From NCBI RefSeq assembly GCF_963678975.1, contig NC_089272.1:25857471-25921470 (forward strand): DNA of 64,000 nucleotides, read 5' to 3'. A program made the translations under genes and the position numbers. The notes under the pieces are model-generated. The model did no database searches. It had not been told where the DNA came from and saw only the letters and a list, made by a program, of their open reading frames with translations. The stretch is from Dysidea avara (Eukaryota > Porifera > Demospongiae > Dictyoceratida > Dysideidae). This document shows positions 2,837 to 60,052 of this stretch, piece by piece (position 1 is the stretch's first letter; the number at the start of each line of letters is the position of its first letter).

Positions 2837-5800
2837 ATGATAGACATAACGCAATGGAGAATAGCGATAGGTACTCATCACCTCCGGTGGAGGCGTAATT
2901 CTAATTACGGGTTAACAACTTTAGGTGAGTACCATGTAGACAGATTAATGTTCTTCATTACGGTATCGGTTAAGGTATTCATTACTATGCATGTTTTTAT
3001 TACTATGCTACTGCTGCTACAAGCAGGTGATGTTGAAAGTAACCCAGGCCCAAACTTTTTAAGGACTTGTCCAAATTGTGATGAAAAAGTGCCGGCAAGA
3101 AAAAAGTTGTGTAAATGTGGATACGTGCTTAACAAAAAAATAGGTAGGCCTACTGGCACCAGTGCAGAAGCGGGCTTTAGGGTAACCACTGGTCGTGCTG
3201 TAGGTACCACTGCAGAAGCAGGGTATAAGGTTTCTAATGGCCGTACTGTAGGTACCACTGCAGAAGCAGGGTATAAGGTTTCTAATGGCCGTACTGTAGG
3301 TACCACTGCAGAAGCAGGATATAAGGTTTCTAATGGCCGTAGTATAGGTACCTCTGCAGAAGCAGGATATAAGGTTTCTAATGGCCGTAGTAGAGGTACC
3401 ACTGAAGAAGCAGGTTTTCATGTTTCATGTGGAAGACCTGTGGTATATAAATCAAATACAAGTGACAAACTAATCACCACAGATGTGAACTGCGTGTCGC
3501 TTAGTGATGAGCTCCTAGCTTTAGGAAACAAGAGGATTGCACAACAAGTTCGCTTTGACTCTAAGCCATTAGCAATTGGGATGTGTTACTGTTGCGGCAG
3601 TATACTTTGGTCCAGAGTAGATAATAGTCATACCAACCTAGTAGACATCAAGTTAACAGAGGGACAAATACCAGCAGTAGCATACCAGAAGGCAATGTTA
3701 TCTGCTGGTAAAGGTTTACTAGAGTACCGTCATAAAAGTGGTAAAATGTATGCACGTGCTGTATGCAAAACATTAAAATGCCCTTCAGAATTTGAATTTC
3801 ATGTTGGAAAATATGAAGGCATAGATATAGAAGAATGGGATATGAGATTTCCTGAAGTCATATTGAATTTAAAAAATCCAGTAGAGCATTGTCAGATAGC
3901 GTTATGTGGAATCTTTTCTACAACGGTGAAAGACGCCAAAAGGCACCAGTGGCGTCACATTCAAGGAGAGGTAAATGCCTTACACAAGCTAGATAGGCAC
4001 TATTATGGATTGTTTGGATTTTTATTAATAAACGAAGACTTAAGTGATAAGTTTGTAAAGTATCCAGAAGCATATGAAAGAATCAGACTGGCTTTACATT
4101 GGCTTAAAAAGAATAATCATCTATACCAAGACTTCCTAGCACGCTTCGAAACCCTTTATAGATATGTTAGACAGGAAATTGTAAATCCAGATGTTTTAAA
4201 GCTTGACCAGAATAAAATATTAGACAGTGAAGCAATAGGTTTGGCATTTCCTGTTGACTCGGAATATTTTGAACAATACTCACCATTGTATGGTGAGATG
4301 GACATTGCCGGTATACAAAATCCAAAGTCACACCTAACTGATAAGGTACAAGATAACATTGAGCAGCTAAGGGAAACCACCAGTGTACAGTATGGACAAA
4401 AATATTTGTTAGAAAAAACATTTCCACACCTTTTCCCATATGGAAAAGGCGGGTGGTTTTACAAGTGTGTCCACGGGCTATCACATTTTACTAAAACTAA
4501 GTTGATGGACTGTAGAGGTTATTTTTCAAACGATCAAAATTTCCCATTTTTTATGTTTGATTATATGACTAAAATGAGGCTGCGGCAATACAACAGTAAA
4601 AAAATAGTAGCAGTTAGTAAACTAGAGCAAAGTTTAACTGCTGGTGAAGTAATAGCAGCTGACAGACCAAAAGATAATGATAACTATGCTTCGTATGGCA
4701 CTGATGTGCCACGTGTGATTCCAGGCTCGAAACAATATTGGAAGTCTTTTGGGTACGACCTTATAGCTACAGTAGAACAGCTTGGAGTTCCCGACTATTT
4801 TATTACTTTGTCCCCAAATGACAATTGGCCCCAAATTCAAGCAACCATTAGGAAAGGCTGGGGAGCCAGTGCTGAACCATGGGAACTCAATGACCTATCC
4901 ACTAAAGGTGACAAAGGAGAATCAGTTGGCTCTCACCCCTTAGAGTCTGTGCTTGGTGCTGAGAAAAGATTCAGTGCCTTTATGGATTTGCTTTTGGACA
5001 AGAAATCTGGCCCAGTAGGTGAAGTAACAGACTATGTAACTAAAAAGGAATATCAGAGAAGGGGAGGGATCCACTGGCATATTTTAGTGTGGGTAAAGCC
5101 TGGTACTGCCCCTGAAAATGTCGTAATGGCTGAGCTACCTCGGGCCAGTGATCCCAATGATAAAAGGGCACAACATATTAGACGAATGGTACAGAAATTT
5201 CAAATGCATCGGGAATGCCATCCTGAGAGATGTTTCAAAGGATACGGTGGCAAAGTCCTTAGTAAATGTAAGTATGGGTTTCCCTTTAAGGTCCCCCAAT
5301 TGGTTGAGGAATTGGACGAGGAAGGAATACGTTACTTGTATAAACGTCGGTGTAAAGAGGACTGCCTAGTTGTACCCTATAATCTTGAAATTCTTCTATT
5401 TTGGGGAGCTTCAATGAATATACAACGTGTGTCAAAGCATGGGTTTGAAATGTATCTAGCCAAATACGTATCTAAACCTGAACCAAGTTTTCAGGTTAAT
5501 TTGTCTGAAAATGCAAGCGATCCAGAAAAGTATTTGCGTACCAGAGTGGTAGGGTCTTGTGAAGCAATAGATGTCCAATTGGGTTTTAACCAGTATCATA
5601 TAAGCAGAATGACTGAATTTCTGCCAACTGAATTAAGGCCAAAACAAAAGTTTTTAAAGAATAAGGCAACACTTGCTTTCCTGCCTGCTAATTCAGTTGA
5701 TGTGTACCAAAAGTCTAAATTTCAAGCTTATATGGAGAGAAACGACAAATTGTGTGATATAACATATCCAATGTATTTTCAGTGGTGGCGCAAAGCAAAT

Positions 5801-8800
5801 GGTGGGGAGCAGAGTAAAGGTGAAAATTGTGTAAAGAAGGGTGTGGCACCTAGTGTAGGATACAAGGGAATAGATGAGTTTAACGAATTGATATTGTCTA
5901 TGCAAAACAGAAGTGATCTTATGGTTGAGCTTAGTGCTAAATTAGATGTTTTAGTGGATAATTTAAATAGTAGTGATAGCAGCGTGACTTCTGGAATAGT
6001 CATAGTCCTAGGTAATGTACTAAGTGATGATATCCTAGGAGTGTGTAAAAAACATTTAGCGGAAAATGGGTACGGTGACATTTTGTGTGATAGTGTCAGT
6101 GATGATGACATCACCAAAGCCACCACTTTAATAAATAATGCTGAATTGTTAGATGATGAATTTGTAGCTAAATTTAAAGTAAAATTACATTGGCTTCACA
6201 AAAAGTTATTGATGTGTAATGAAGAAAACGAAATCACTGTAACTCCATTGTACATAATGTTACAAGCTCACCCTCCTGGCTCTATGTTAATGGATACTGA
6301 TGGCAATTATTGGATACGACGAGCACGTGCATGCGTTACTCGGCACAGATTTATTTCCTTAGATGATCAAGAAGCATTTTATGAAAAAAAATATTTGTTA
6401 GAAATACTATTAACTTCAAATGATAATATAGTGTCTGATCCACCTTCGTCTTGGATTAAAGCAGCAATGGTAGCTGGGCTAGTAGATGAAAGTCACGATG
6501 CAAAGGCTAATTTAATGGATGCTGTCAACCGTGGCTTCTCATTCGACAATATTAAATCAATTGTCAACCTGTATGTAGAGCATAGGTTCCTTGATGAAGG
6601 TGATGCAGATGTGTTTCTATCAACAATACCTATTGGTTCAATAAATAATGAAGAAACTAAAGAAGTGACAGACCAGTTGTTAGATGATGGCGAGGGTAAA
6701 TGCTTGCTTCCTCCACATCATGCACCTCTAGAAGACTATATGAGCAAATTTACACCATCCCAAAAACGTGCATTTGAGCATTTAAAAAGTGGAATGCAAA
6801 GTAGTAATACACAAGTATTGGCTGCACTGGTAGGTGCTGCAGGCTGTGGTAAGTCTTTCCTTATGGGTGCTGTTGTAGAACACTTACGGCAATGTAATAT
6901 GGTAGTAACCAAACTGGCTCCAAGTGGCGTGGCGGCTGGTTTAATTCACGGAAAAACAATACATAATTTCTTTAGGTTAGATATTACCGGTAAAATGTCA
7001 CTCCAAAATGGAACAGTTGATGCAACTGCACTTAGAAAGACTGACGTGATAATTTGTGATGAGTTTGGAATGATAGATTGCAAAATTTTTTTAACAATGG
7101 AACATCTTTGTAGGCGTTTTTCTACAAAGGATGGACGTTATAAACCATGGGGTGGACGTCATATACTATTGTTTGGCGATCCTGCACAATTGCCACCTGT
7201 TTCAAACACAGATATATTTAACACAAAATTGTGGTCTCACTTTAGTATTTTGCAACTAAGAGAAATAGTCAGAAGTAAGGACACACAATTAAGTTCCATA
7301 CTGACTAAAATTAGGAAGGGAGAATGTGACGAAACGGTCAGTTCTGTGTTAAAAAGTCGCCTGAGAGATGTTGATATTGATGCAGTGGACTTGACCCGAA
7401 CTGTTATAATATGCTCCAAGCGTAAAGAGGTAGACTTAATCAATGAGGAGTGTCTAAAACGAATAGATGGTGAGACACATGAATACGAGGCCAACGATAC
7501 TGATAGTAATGGTCAGCCATTGAGAGAGGCAGACAAACAAAGATTACAACGAGATTCCATGCGCCTACCTGATAGAATTAGTTTAAAGAAAGGTTGTCGC
7601 ATAGTACTGAGACGTAACTTACAAGTATCACAAGGTTGGGTAAATGGAGCATTATGTGAGGTGTTGGACATGACTCCTAATTGTATATTAGTGTGCAAAC
7701 TAGGAAATCCTGATAGCATGTACCCTGTTGCAAGAACCAGACAGAGAATAGACATTAAAGGTGCATCGTATTCAATACTACGATCACAGTTTCCAGTACA
7801 GTTAGCTTATGCAGTAACTGTGCATCGTGTACAGGGCTTAACAGTAGACAGTGCTATCGTAACTTTAAATAACAATTTCTTTGCTTCTGGTCAAGCCTAT
7901 GTTGCACTCAGTAGAGTAAGGAAACTTGAGGATTTAACCCTATGGGATTTTTCACCCAGTGCCATAAAAATAGCACCTTACTATAGACAATTACTAGAAT
8001 GGTGCGACTGTTTCGACCAAATCAGACCAACAGCATATGATGGGCCACCTGTAAGACACCCAGATAGACAGCATGATGATATTAGCTGTGCCACGGTGGA
8101 AGGCAATATGGAGGCTGCTTTGGATGCAATGTATCAGGCATGTGAAGCTGCTACCATGCTTCATTCAAATGCAAATTTAACTGCCGAGCAGCCTCGAAAA
8201 GCTGATAACTCTAATAGTGTGCCATCTTCTGAATCAGCTATTAATCAGAATAAGAAAAAGAAAGTAAGAGTTACCATAGCTAAAACTAACAACAAAGGTA
8301 AAGGAAAAAGAGTTAAACAGGCAAAAAAAGCAACTGCAAAATCTGTGGATGTATCCACCAGAAAAAGAAATCGTGTTCCAGACAAGTCCACAAAAGGGGT
8401 TAAGAAAACTAAAATTTGTAAAGATTGTGTAATCACTGATGTTGAAAACGTTATAGGCCCTAATAGGATAACCTGGCCAGAATATCGGTATTATCAAATT
8501 GACCAAGCATGGCAGGAGAATGCTTGTTTAAGGACAGGTGTGCATCTTACAAGTGCCAACGAATTTCAACCAGGTGGCCCACATGTAATTTTAACACGAC
8601 CTGACTTGAATTCACTAGTCAATGTCCAGGCTGATGGTAATTGTCTTTTCCGCGCATTGGCATGCGTTGTAACGGGGAGTGAATCACAACACATGCAAAT
8701 GCGCAATGCAATAGTTAGTTACATGTATTCCATTGAGAACTTAGTAGTTGGTCATGATTCAGAAGGACATGCCAATTATTTACAACCATTGCGTTGTTCC

Positions 8801-9052
8801 ACAGTTGAACAATATGTCAACCAAAGTAGCATGCTGACAAACGGAACTTGGGGTTCCGAATTCGAAATAATGATTTTTTCTCATATGTTGAATACTAATG
8901 TATTTAGTTTTGATGCAAGTAGTAATACCTGGAGTGTATTCTGTGCAGCCAACATTGATAGAGATAGACGCAGAGACTACCATTCTATGAGCATTTATAT
9001 TTACTTCAGACACTCTCATTTCTACGTTGTGTCATCAGTAAGGAGAGTGTAG
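2837..9052 (+). CDS. Helitron Rep-helicase-OTU polyprotein with an N-terminal 2A-like peptide (intact, 2071 aa)
   Basis: Replication initiator and helicase of a rolling-circle (Helitron-type) transposon. In order: hydrophobic leader (residues ~37-62); 2A-like [15 protein letters not shown] (58-72); cysteine pairs CPNC and CKC (78-94, zinc-ribbon-like); six 16-residue GRxxGT repeats (103-198); a CYCCG cluster; Helitron-like N domain with [10 protein letters not shown] (from 529); HUH nuclease HWH (H746, H748); two-tyrosine motif YLAKY (Y873, Y877). The PIF1-type SF1 helicase follows: Walker A GAAGCGKS (1333-1340), DEFGM (1408-1412), GDPAQLPPV (1447 on), HRVQG (1663-1667), YVALSR (1688-1693). 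Next come a lysine-rich linker (~1806-1868) and an OTU cysteine protease domain (D1933, C1936, H2061). No stop or frameshift interrupts it, so it is probably young. No AP-endonuclease domain is visible. Translation could also start at M38. Classification as Helitron versus Helentron rests on ends I could not define. Confidence 0.96.
3008..3052 (+). other. 2A-like ribosome-skipping sequence inside the Helitron ORF
   Basis: These codons give [15 protein letters not shown], a full match to the 2A consensus D(V/I)ExNPGP with a leucine-rich stretch upstream. In known 2As the ribosome omits the bond between the final Gly and Pro (here G71/P72, Pro codon 3050-3052), releasing the upstream peptide and restarting at Pro. 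That would separate a ~71-residue hydrophobic leader from the Rep-Hel-OTU body. 2A-like peptides are known in some non-LTR retrotransposons and in sea urchin NLR genes; activity here is inferred from the motif. Confidence 0.9.
3143..3430 (+). repeat. In-frame 48-bp coding minisatellite (six units)
   Basis: Six consecutive 16-codon units encode GRxxGT(S/T)AEAG(F/Y)xVSN-type repeats. The middle units are nearly identical at DNA level, most with a GGTACC site, so the array was amplified recently and kept in frame. The GR(P/T/S) core recalls AT-hook minor-groove binders, and similar GRPxGT-EAG repeats occur in other invertebrate proteins. A DNA-contact role beside the Rep domain is inference. Confidence 0.9.
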
Positions 9053-9675: not shown

Positions 9676-9860
9676 ATGGTGGATGCTTTTGACTCATTCA
9701 CGACTTCACTAAAACAAAAAAAAATTAGAGTAACTATGAGTAAAAACATTAAAGTAAAACAAGCTAAACAGCTATCAAAAACAAATACCTCAATTGTAAA
9801 TGATAAGTTATCTAGGAAAAGAAATCATGTGTCAGACAAGCGCTCAAAACAACAAAAATA
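9676..9860 (+). pseudogene. Diverged partial copy of the Helitron basic linker
   Basis: Reading this stretch gives a lysine-rich peptide with KKIRVTMSK...KVKQAK...SRKRNHVSDKRSK. It aligns with the linker inside the main ORF (KKVRVTIAK...RVKQAK...[13 protein letters not shown], coded around 8250-8420). It is therefore a duplicated fragment of the Rep-Hel gene lying 0.6 kb downstream of its stop. Its final codons CAACAAAAATA run straight into the first donor of the 137-bp array, and every array unit ends the same way. Confidence 0.75.
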
Positions 9861-11470
9861 GTAAGTTCATCAATTGTAGTGTTAACTTGTATCTATTAAT
9901 TTATCATCATTCAGGACTCCACAAGTAGTGTTGAGTCCCCTAAAGGGTTCGAAACGTGTGGAGGAAGGATGGGTTACGTTAACAAACAACAAAAATAGTA
10001 AGTTCATCAATCGTAGTGTTAACTTGTATCTATTAATTTATCATCATTCAGGACTCCACAAGTGTTGAGTCCCCTAAAGGGTTCGAAACGTGTGGAGGAA
10101 GGATGGGTTACGTTAACAAACAACAAAAATAGTAAGTTCATCAATTGTAGTGATAACTTGTATCTATTAATTTATCACCATTAAGGACTCCACAGGTAGT
10201 GTTGAGTCCCCTAAAGGGTTCGAAACGTGTGGAGGAAGGATGGGTTACGTTAACAAACAACAAAAATAGTAAGTTCATCAATTGTAGTGATAACTTGTAT
10301 CTATTAATTTATCACCATTAAGGACTCCACAAGTAGTGTTGAGTCCCCTAAAGGGTTCGAAACGTGTGGAAGAAGGATGGGTTACGTTAACAAACAACAA
10401 AAATAGTAAGTTCATCAATCGTAGTGTTAACTTGTATCTATTAATTTATCACCATTAAGGACTCCACATGTAGTGTTGAGTCCCCTAAAGGGTTCGAAAC
10501 GTGTGGAGGAAGGATGGGTTACGTTAACAAACAACAAAAATAGTAAGTTCATCAATTGTAGTGATAACTTGTATCTATTAATTTATCACCATTAAGGACT
10601 CTACAGGTAGTGTTGAGTCCCCTAAAGGGTTCGAAACGTGTGGAGGAAGGATGGGTTACGTTAACAAACAACAAAAATAGTAAGTTCATCAATTGTAGTG
10701 TTAACTTGTATCTATTAATTTATCACCATTAAGGACTCCACAAGTAGAGTCCCCTAAAGGGTTCAAAACGTGTGGAGGAAGGATGGGTTACGTTAACAAA
10801 CAACGAAAATAGTAAGTTCATCAATTGTAGTGATAACTTGTATCTATTAATCTATCACCATTAAGGACTCCACAAGTAGTGTTGAGTCCCCTAAAGGGTT
10901 CGAAACGTGTGGAGGAAGGATGGGTTACGTTAACAAACAACAAAAATAGTAAGTTCATCAATCGTAGTGTTAACTTGTATCTATTAATTTATCACCATTA
11001 AGGACTCCACAAGTAGTGTTGAGTCCCCTAAAGGGTTCGAAACGTGTGGAGGAAGGATGGGTTACGTTAACAAACAACAAAAATAGTAAGTTCATCAATC
11101 GTAGTGTTAACTTGTATCTATTAATTTATCATCATTCAGGACTCCACAAGTAGTGTTGAGTCCCCTAAAGGGTTCGAAACGTGTGGAGGAAGGATGGGTT
11201 ACGTTAACAAACAACAAAAATAGTAAGTTCATCAATCGTAGTGTTAACTTGTATCTATTAATTTATCATCATTCAGGACTCCACAAGTAGTGTTGAATCC
11301 CCTAAAGGGTTCGAAACGTGTGGAGGAAGGATGGGTTACGTTAACAAACAACAAAAATAGTAAGTTCATCAATTGTAGTGATAACTTGTATCTATTAATT
11401 TATCACCATTCAGGACTCCACAAGTAGTGTTGAGTCCCCTAAAGGGTTCGAAACGTGTGGAGGAAGGATG
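9861..11470 (+). repeat. Tandem array of ~137-bp units, each with splice donor and acceptor
   Basis: Twelve GTAAGTTCATCAAT starts occur at 9861, 9998, 10132, 10269, 10406, 10543, 10680, 10812, 10949, 11086, 11223 and 11360, giving a period of 137 bp (134 and 132 in two units with small deletions). In every unit the GTAAGT is followed 54 nt later by CAG or AAG before GACTCCACA, then ~83 nt including CCCCTAAAGGGTTCGAAACG. This fits an exon-intron-exon minisatellite. Because 83 is not a multiple of three, chained exons hit stops, so the array is probably non-coding or 3' UTR. CCCT/AGGG and TTCGAA are small palindromes. Confidence 0.93.
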
Positions 11471-22956: not shown

Positions 22957-23943
22957 CTATCAGGTGTGCCTCAAGGGACTGTCTTGGGTCCCTTATTGTT
23001 TTTATTATACATTAACGATATTGCAAATAGAGTGTCATCTTCAATTCGTCTGTTTGCTGATGACTGCATCTTATACAGAGTTATTAAGTGTGAAAATGAT
23101 TCTATTATCCTTCAGCGTGATCTTGATCTATTATCTCAGTGGGCAACACTTTGGCAAATGAAGTTCAACGTATCTAAGTGTGTACTAATTCGATGCTCTC
23201 GATCACTTGATCCATTTCAATATGACTACCAACTACATAATCATATTCTAGAAGTAAGAGATGAGCATTTGTATTTGGGTGTCCTGTTACACGAATCCCT
23301 ATCATGGTCTAATCATATTACTAGAACTGCTGCAAAAGCATCACAATTATTCAACTTTTTAAGACGAAACTTGAGTAACTGTTCTCCCTCAGTTAAAGCC
23401 ACTGCCTACCTTACTATAGTTCGTCCTGTTTTAGAGTATGCAGCATCAGTATGGGACCCATACCAACAAAATGACATCTTGTCCCTAGAAAAGGTCCAAC
23501 GTAGAGCTGCTCGGTGGGCACTGTCTGACTATAATAGACTTAGCAGTGTAACTGATATGCTAGAGATTTTGGGTTGGCCGTCACTTGAATCTAGACGAAG
23601 AATTGGTCGACTACAAACATTTTATAAAGGAATCAACAACTTATCAGGATTATCCATTCCACCATATTTCTTGCCAACTCAACGATCCACCAGACACCAC
23701 CACACTCACCACTTTATCCAACCCAGTACACGGTCCAGTTATTATCAACATGCTTTTTTTCCAAGAACAATCAAAGATTGGAACAGCTTGCCAGTATCTG
23801 TCATAGAATCAGAAAACATAGATACATTTACTAATTACTTATTGTCTATCTAATTGTTTGCTGTATATCTTATGTGTATGTGTGATTTCTTTGGGGTGTT
23901 GATCGCCCCCTGGGCGCATCGGCAATTGCCGTCTGCCCAGTAA
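22957..23943 (+). pseudogene. 5'-truncated LINE: reverse transcriptase C-terminal half plus 3' tail
   Basis: From SGVPQGTVLGPLLFLLYIND onward this is a non-LTR reverse transcriptase with the catalytic LFADD, the LYLGVLL thumb region, and the C-terminal VWDPYQQNDI...LEKVQRRAARW...WNSLP pattern of CR1/L2/jockey-type LINEs. The frame stays open to a TAA at 23851. The 3' UTR contains CGCCCCCTGGGCGCATCGGC and ends in AATAAATAAAT. It is truncated at the 5' end, as usual for LINE insertions, and out of frame with 22460-22935. Confidence 0.88.

Positions 23944-28373: not shown

Positions 28374-60052
<31,679 letters not shown>

Follow-up and report, generated by a model that had tools for sequence, protein, structure and literature searches.

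Sequences of the 2A type are reportedly present in non-LTR retrotransposons, both L1Tc and APE-type, and are said to have been described there by Heras (2006) and Odon (2013). In sea urchin NLR genes, 2A-like signal sequences stand at the head of the protein (Roulston et al. 2016, PMC4981915). For RNA viruses, PMC12846837 lists an LLLLSG-like group as one of four formed from the 20 commonest StopGo hexapeptides of viruses. The L-rich StopGo motifs 2 and 6 end in (A/S/C)G, D is preferred at p12 and S at p15, and p16 is almost exclusively N. Motifs 1, 3, 4 and 6 were tested in that study, and with few exceptions activity was nearly lost once characteristic residues were mutated. Neither PMC12846837 nor PMC4981915 mentions Helitrons, and no report linking a Helitron to 2A, NPGP or ribosome skipping was found in the open-licence literature. 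The latter result fits the remark in the earlier note on this DNA that no rolling-circle transposon with a 2A peptide had been described. Here, we compare with these systems a Helitron gene in which a 2A/StopGo sequence lies in frame between a leader and the transposase.

An intact Helitron gene carries an in-frame 2A sequence

The window, that is, the whole 64,000-nucleotide stretch of Dysidea avara DNA that was analysed, contains a long Helitron reading frame with the following parts.

2837..9052, + strand: Helitron Rep-Helicase-OTU open reading frame, 2071 aa, without internal stop
3062..3127, + strand: zinc ribbon (UPF0547-like), aa 76-97; Pfam score 24.7 bits, below the cut-off of 29
3158..3414, + strand: tandem 48-nt units, 5.4 copies, encoding amino-acid repeats, inside the DUF5568 match
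4523..5089, + strand: Helitron_like_N (Rep) Pfam match
5072-5080, + strand: HWH of Rep
5453-5467, + strand: YLAKY (Y-x-x-K-Y), outside and past the Helitron_like_N match
6752..7333, + strand: PIF1-type helicase, with Walker A at 6833-6856
8627..8905, + strand: OTU-like cysteine protease domain, with DGNC at 8633-8644

Stop codons close the frame upstream, and the ATG at 2837 is the first one past them; its use as the start is supported by the first 30 aa, which are alike in the window's copy, P0003 and P0007. Pfam matched DUF5568, Helitron_like_N, PIF1 and OTU to the frame, and a 16-residue sequence was found in it together with DGNC. A Rep with HUH and Y-x-x-K-Y is thus joined to a PIF1-type helicase in one protein, as in the Helitron class, and the Helraiser helicase (PDB 7lcc) matched aa 1304-1701 with an E-value of 1.8e-32. 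The possibility that the DUF5568 match marks the leader as an already described domain was considered and rejected: 102.2 of its 111 bits came from sequence past the 2A, and the leader with the 2A by itself gave no Pfam match at E 0.01. No mention of DUF5568 or PF17724 was found in the open-licence literature.

The N-terminal part of the frame is divided as follows.

2837..3049, + strand: leader, the predicted upstream StopGo product, aa 1-71
2963..3019, + strand: hydrophobic segment, aa 43-61, mean Kyte-Doolittle value 2.16
3008..3052, + strand: 2A/StopGo sequence of 15 residues, aa 58-72, in frame, ending at codon 72
between Gly71 (3047-3049) and Pro72 (3050-3052), + strand: predicted skip site
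3050..9049, + strand: downstream product predicted from the StopGo mechanism, aa 72-2071, 2000 aa, starting Pro-Asn-Phe

The full 2A consensus that the earlier note had placed behind a hydrophobic segment in an intact Helitron gene was confirmed at 3008-3052, the segment being aa 43-61. Its octapeptide DVESNPGP (3029-3052) fits the core pattern (D/G/C/N)(V/I)ExNPGP; from the composition and length of the protein, 1.4e-5 matches to this pattern are expected. The core was seen once in the six frames of the 64 kb window, with no second occurrence. When the upstream context was compared by eye, without the motif models of PMC12846837, the preceding LLLQAG proved to be L-rich and to end in AG, with D at p12 and S at p15.

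Repeats and fragments around the gene

Several other repeats were observed in the window. A 61-aa reading frame at 9676-9861 is similar to the Helitron protein's Lys-rich linker and may be what is left of a broken second copy; 8360-8395 and 9814-9849 match over 36 nt at 81%. Downstream of the gene, 9847-11470 is a tandem array of 11.9 copies of a 137-bp unit with 96% matches; by eye, the unit carries the inverted repeat CTCCACA...TGTGGAG. Satellite arrays carried by Helentrons have reportedly been described (PMC7492417). What appears by eye to be one 31/61-bp satellite occupies 1-1824 and, some 45 kb away and in the reverse orientation, 47218-49486. A reverse transcriptase fragment (RVT_1, E 1.9e-11) lies at 22966-23850, and a nearly pure TGCC tetranucleotide array of 134 copies at 43498-44032; the long reading frames on both strands of this array are probably spurious.

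The 2A core is conserved in Helitron relatives with a long leader

Three protein searches yielded at least 40 distinct proteins, all resting on automatic gene models. The second search brought no new relative among 7988 scored candidates, its list probably having been filled by the GRxxGTT repeats, and the third added five distant proteins without 2A among 7987 scored candidates. The sizes of the search clusters, for example 67 members for that of P0026, were taken as given. One protein, P0001, is the window's Helitron family itself (100% over the region, in a model of 1235 aa).

On scanning for the motif, the strict core was located in 11 of the 40 proteins (P0001, P0003, P0006, P0007, P0018 and P0023-P0028). 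Among the 12 proteins with at least 60 residues ahead of the zinc ribbon it was present in 11, or in 10 of 11 when P0001 is left aside. The twelfth, P0004, has KPGP; with p16 almost exclusively N in PMC12846837, this K predicts an inactive site. P0003 and P0004 agree at 96-99% over most regions and are 96-100% alike around the changed core, so close copies do lose it. Where fewer than 60 residues precede the ribbon, the core is absent from nine of ten proteins, and the model of the tenth, P0005, starts inside the motif (MNPGP). These nine, which reach the ribbon without a 2A, are P0010, P0012, P0013, P0014, P0016 and P0019-P0022; P0013 has 54 residues ahead of the ribbon. The ribbon was not seen in ten models, mostly starting downstream of it (P0002, P0008, P0009, P0011, P0015, P0017 and P0029-P0032), and eight distant Helitron-type proteins (P0033-P0040) have neither ribbon nor core. 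The conservation that the earlier note named as a check was borne out in 11 of 40 proteins including P0001; among those with at least 60 pre-ribbon residues the share is 11 of 12. P0004 with its KPGP, and P0021 of clade B, which has no leader, depart from this conservation.

The hexapeptides preceding the core are LLLQAG, LLLLCG, RLLLCG, IILCHG and LLI(V/I)(S/A)G, with (A/S/C)G at the end in 10 of the 11 strict proteins and HG in P0007. Judged by its letters, the octapeptide with this L-rich, mostly (A/S/C)G context is a StopGo signature, not a generic turn.

A quick tree was built of 33 rows (P0001, P0032 and P0034 omitted, P0036-P0040 absent), which fixes neither the root nor the number of gains. 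Clade A has the 2A in four of nine rows, the window's copy among them; of the five rows scored 'no', one is P0004 and the other four are models whose start falls within or beyond the motif, which makes a lower true count of losses probable. In clade B the 2A is present in seven of eight rows, and P0021, without leader or 2A, is sister to the other seven. Clade C has it in none of 14 rows; eight reach the ribbon, and the six models that stop short of it are uninformative on the 2A. Two long outgroup rows are both without 2A. The 2A label required 5 changes on the tree, compared with a shuffled mean of 9.5, and 1 of 500 shuffles was as low, a comparison that near-copies make easy to pass.

No relative was found in viral contigs searched with the protein and with alignment A1 (23 and 62 pattern matches), nor in genome contigs searched with alignment A1 (79 pattern matches). 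In the phage collection 367 records matched, all below 60% identity and none over more than 80% of the query; the 20 matches listed all fall in the helicase part or extend slightly beyond its end (query 1302-1816). On the sequence evidence, the 2A leader is real and conserved in two Helitron clades, and the site is very likely functional in skipping.

Leaders change while the core persists

The leaders were judged by hydropathy (19-residue window, threshold 1.6) and not by a signal-peptide predictor. In the window's copy the hydrophobic segment starts 42 residues past the ATG at 2837, not at the extreme N-terminus, and abuts the 2A core directly. Hydrophobic segments were found in 11 of the 12 leaders examined. 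Each of the seven leaders in clade B contains two to four, one of them about 100 aa upstream, while the bodies have 0 or 1 each. Counted through the last core residue, the leaders of the relatives span 72 to 391 aa; those of the window's copy, P0003, P0004 and P0006 fall within 72-75 aa. Residues 1-391 of P0007, up to the end of the 2A, hold nine hydrophobic segments. The exception among the 12 is P0006, whose 74-aa leader has no segment above the threshold.

Identity of leader and body was compared in clade A only. Between the window's copy and P0003, Rep is 71% identical and the 18 residues preceding the core 33%; the corresponding values are 68% and 22% for P0006, and 68% and 17% for P0007. 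P0006 and P0007 are 88% identical in Rep, 24% in the 18 pre-core residues and 31% over 48 aligned positions of the remaining leader. All of these pairs agree in six core residues, and V or I occupies the seventh. The chance of keeping seven core residues at a leader-like identity of 20-33% is 1e-5 to 4e-4 per pair, a rough value that may be up to 10 times too low for pairs in which V and I alternate. The 18 pre-core residues of clade B are 50-100% identical, the remaining leader 31-97% and the ribbon 50-94%.

Over the first 30 aa, none of 2000 shuffles reached the score of the pairs formed by the window's copy, P0003 and P0007, while for the three pairs with P0006 the score was reached by 247, 436 and 644 of 2000. 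This unlikeness of P0006 to the other three suggests that its leader was replaced. The alignments thus show leaders that, within clade A, appear to swap or diverge while the 2A core persists.

The predicted skip site also bears on where the body begins. Numbered from the Pro that follows this site (Pro72 in the window's copy), the first Cys of the ribbon falls at residue 7 in the window's copy and at residue 6 or 7 in P0003, P0006 and P0007. In leaderless proteins starting with Met it is residue 6-10 in seven of nine, 18 in P0019 and 55 in P0013. In clade B it is residue 27-43 from the Pro. Skipping would thus restore the usual start of the body in clade A only, where the Cys positions match those of leaderless relatives.

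Skipping would free the transposase from its leader

We propose that an active StopGo releases the transposase body from a membrane-type leader. The skipping that frees the body is probable on this evidence, and the membrane part, taken alone, has about an even chance. The ribosome would translate the 71-aa membrane-prone leader, skip the Gly71-Pro72 bond and let the leader go, and would then continue to make a free 2000-aa Rep-helicase-OTU body. The freed body would begin just ahead of the zinc ribbon, like most leaderless relatives, and would be able to enter the nucleus. The membrane system would retain or take in the leader, together with the minor share of fusion protein left unskipped; such retention could limit the dose of active transposase, or the leader may have a job of its own. 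Skipping, the destinations of the products and their purpose are what we infer here.

The strongest competitor accepts the same skipping step and differs only in the membrane part. StopGo would be active and nearly complete, the hydrophobic stretch mere L-rich context for the exit tunnel, and the leader thrown away with neither membrane targeting nor dual localisation. An LLLLSG-like group is among the frequent viral hexapeptides, the motifs tested in PMC12846837 need their characteristic residues in almost all cases, and the segment of the window's copy abuts the core. The L-rich stretch itself belongs to this known upstream class, which complicates the signal-sequence reading of the earlier note. 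However, the leaders extend well past a hexapeptide, with two to four segments in the seven clade B leaders and nine in P0007, and the first 30 residues are alike among the window's copy, P0003 and P0007. We consider this account plausible, with a likelihood of roughly one in three.

A further alternative concerns one feature.

2925..3026, + strand: possible optional in-phase intron, 102 nt; its removal deletes aa 31-64 (hydrophobic segment and L-rich context) and retains DVESNPGP

Here the hydrophobic segment would be an intron or an alternatively spliced cassette, and splicing of 2925-3026, which joins GLTTLG to DVESNPGP, would switch the leader-2A on or off. The sole AG/GTGAGT of the reading frame starts at 2923 (codon-shuffle mean 0.11), and an in-phase CAG/G acceptor ends at 3026. 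This in-phase pair around the hydrophobic segment complicates what the earlier note read in the window's copy, and its use could strip the L-rich 2A context from some or all transcripts. However, T gathers at codon position 2 within 2925-3026 (20/34 vs 18/68, Fisher p 0.0016), and of 514 presumed non-coding stretches containing 30-46 T, 1 is equally skewed in any frame; this pattern looks coding and speaks against an ordinary intron. The pyrimidine fraction of the acceptor is 0.60 and at least 10 other YAG sites in the frame are better, while relatives retain L-rich sequence and the G at the putative intron, and leaders of 72-75 aa recur. We therefore regard splicing of this kind as unlikely.

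NPGP could also be retained independently of skipping, for example as a turn ahead of the zinc ribbon or as a protease site, and its place at a domain border would suit such a role; with nine of the ten short-leader proteins lacking NPGP, the tenth (P0005) starting inside the motif, and the context of the octapeptide being that of StopGo, this is very improbable. A chance motif in a decaying copy, for which P0004 shows that a copy can lose the core, is untenable and its likelihood negligible, since a core expected 1.4e-5 times per protein is also seen in divergent relatives, in two clades.

Returning to the release of the body by skipping, a broader version is a speculative and rather unlikely one. 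Whole clades of Helitrons would then be two-protein elements, in which one StopGo-cut frame gives a nuclear transposase and a membrane protein, the latter 390 aa long in P0007, with nine hydrophobic segments. The leader would evolve fast, be exchangeable as a module and serve a function of its own in the life cycle, for example dose control through ER partition or a membrane step aiding passage between cells or hosts; in the window's copy the balance may depend on optional splicing of the cassette that encodes the hydrophobic segment.

Comparison with known systems

With Helitrons that carry OTU the element shares Rep (Helitron_like_N), the PIF1 helicase and OTU, and with Helraiser the helicase; we know of no 2A leader or GRxxGTT repeats in Helraiser. 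The 2A-bearing non-LTR retrotransposons are likewise mobile elements with an in-frame 2A, but they have a reverse transcriptase, whereas the window's element is a DNA rolling-circle element with an HUH nuclease and a Pif1 helicase. RNA-virus StopGo motifs 2 and 6 of the L-rich kind (PMC12846837) resemble the window's copy in a hexapeptide ending (A/S/C)G, in D at p12 and in S at p15; they sit in polyproteins, whereas the present one is in a DNA transposon. Closest in layout are the sea urchin NLR signal sequences (PMC4981915), where a hydrophobic N-terminal leader ends in D(V/I)ExNPGP and the body follows. The NLR leader is 26 aa long, belongs to a host immune receptor and was assayed for skipping and secretion; the Helitron leader is 71 aa (to 390 in P0007), belongs to a transposase, and its skipping is a prediction from the sequence. 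The Helitron 2A would thus be a third, unrelated setting outside RNA viruses, besides non-LTR retrotransposons and sea urchin NLR genes. Its order of membrane-type leader, 2A and body, as in the NLR genes, suggests that the leader-2A is a transferable device by which an enzyme of the nucleus or cytosol is released from a membrane leader.
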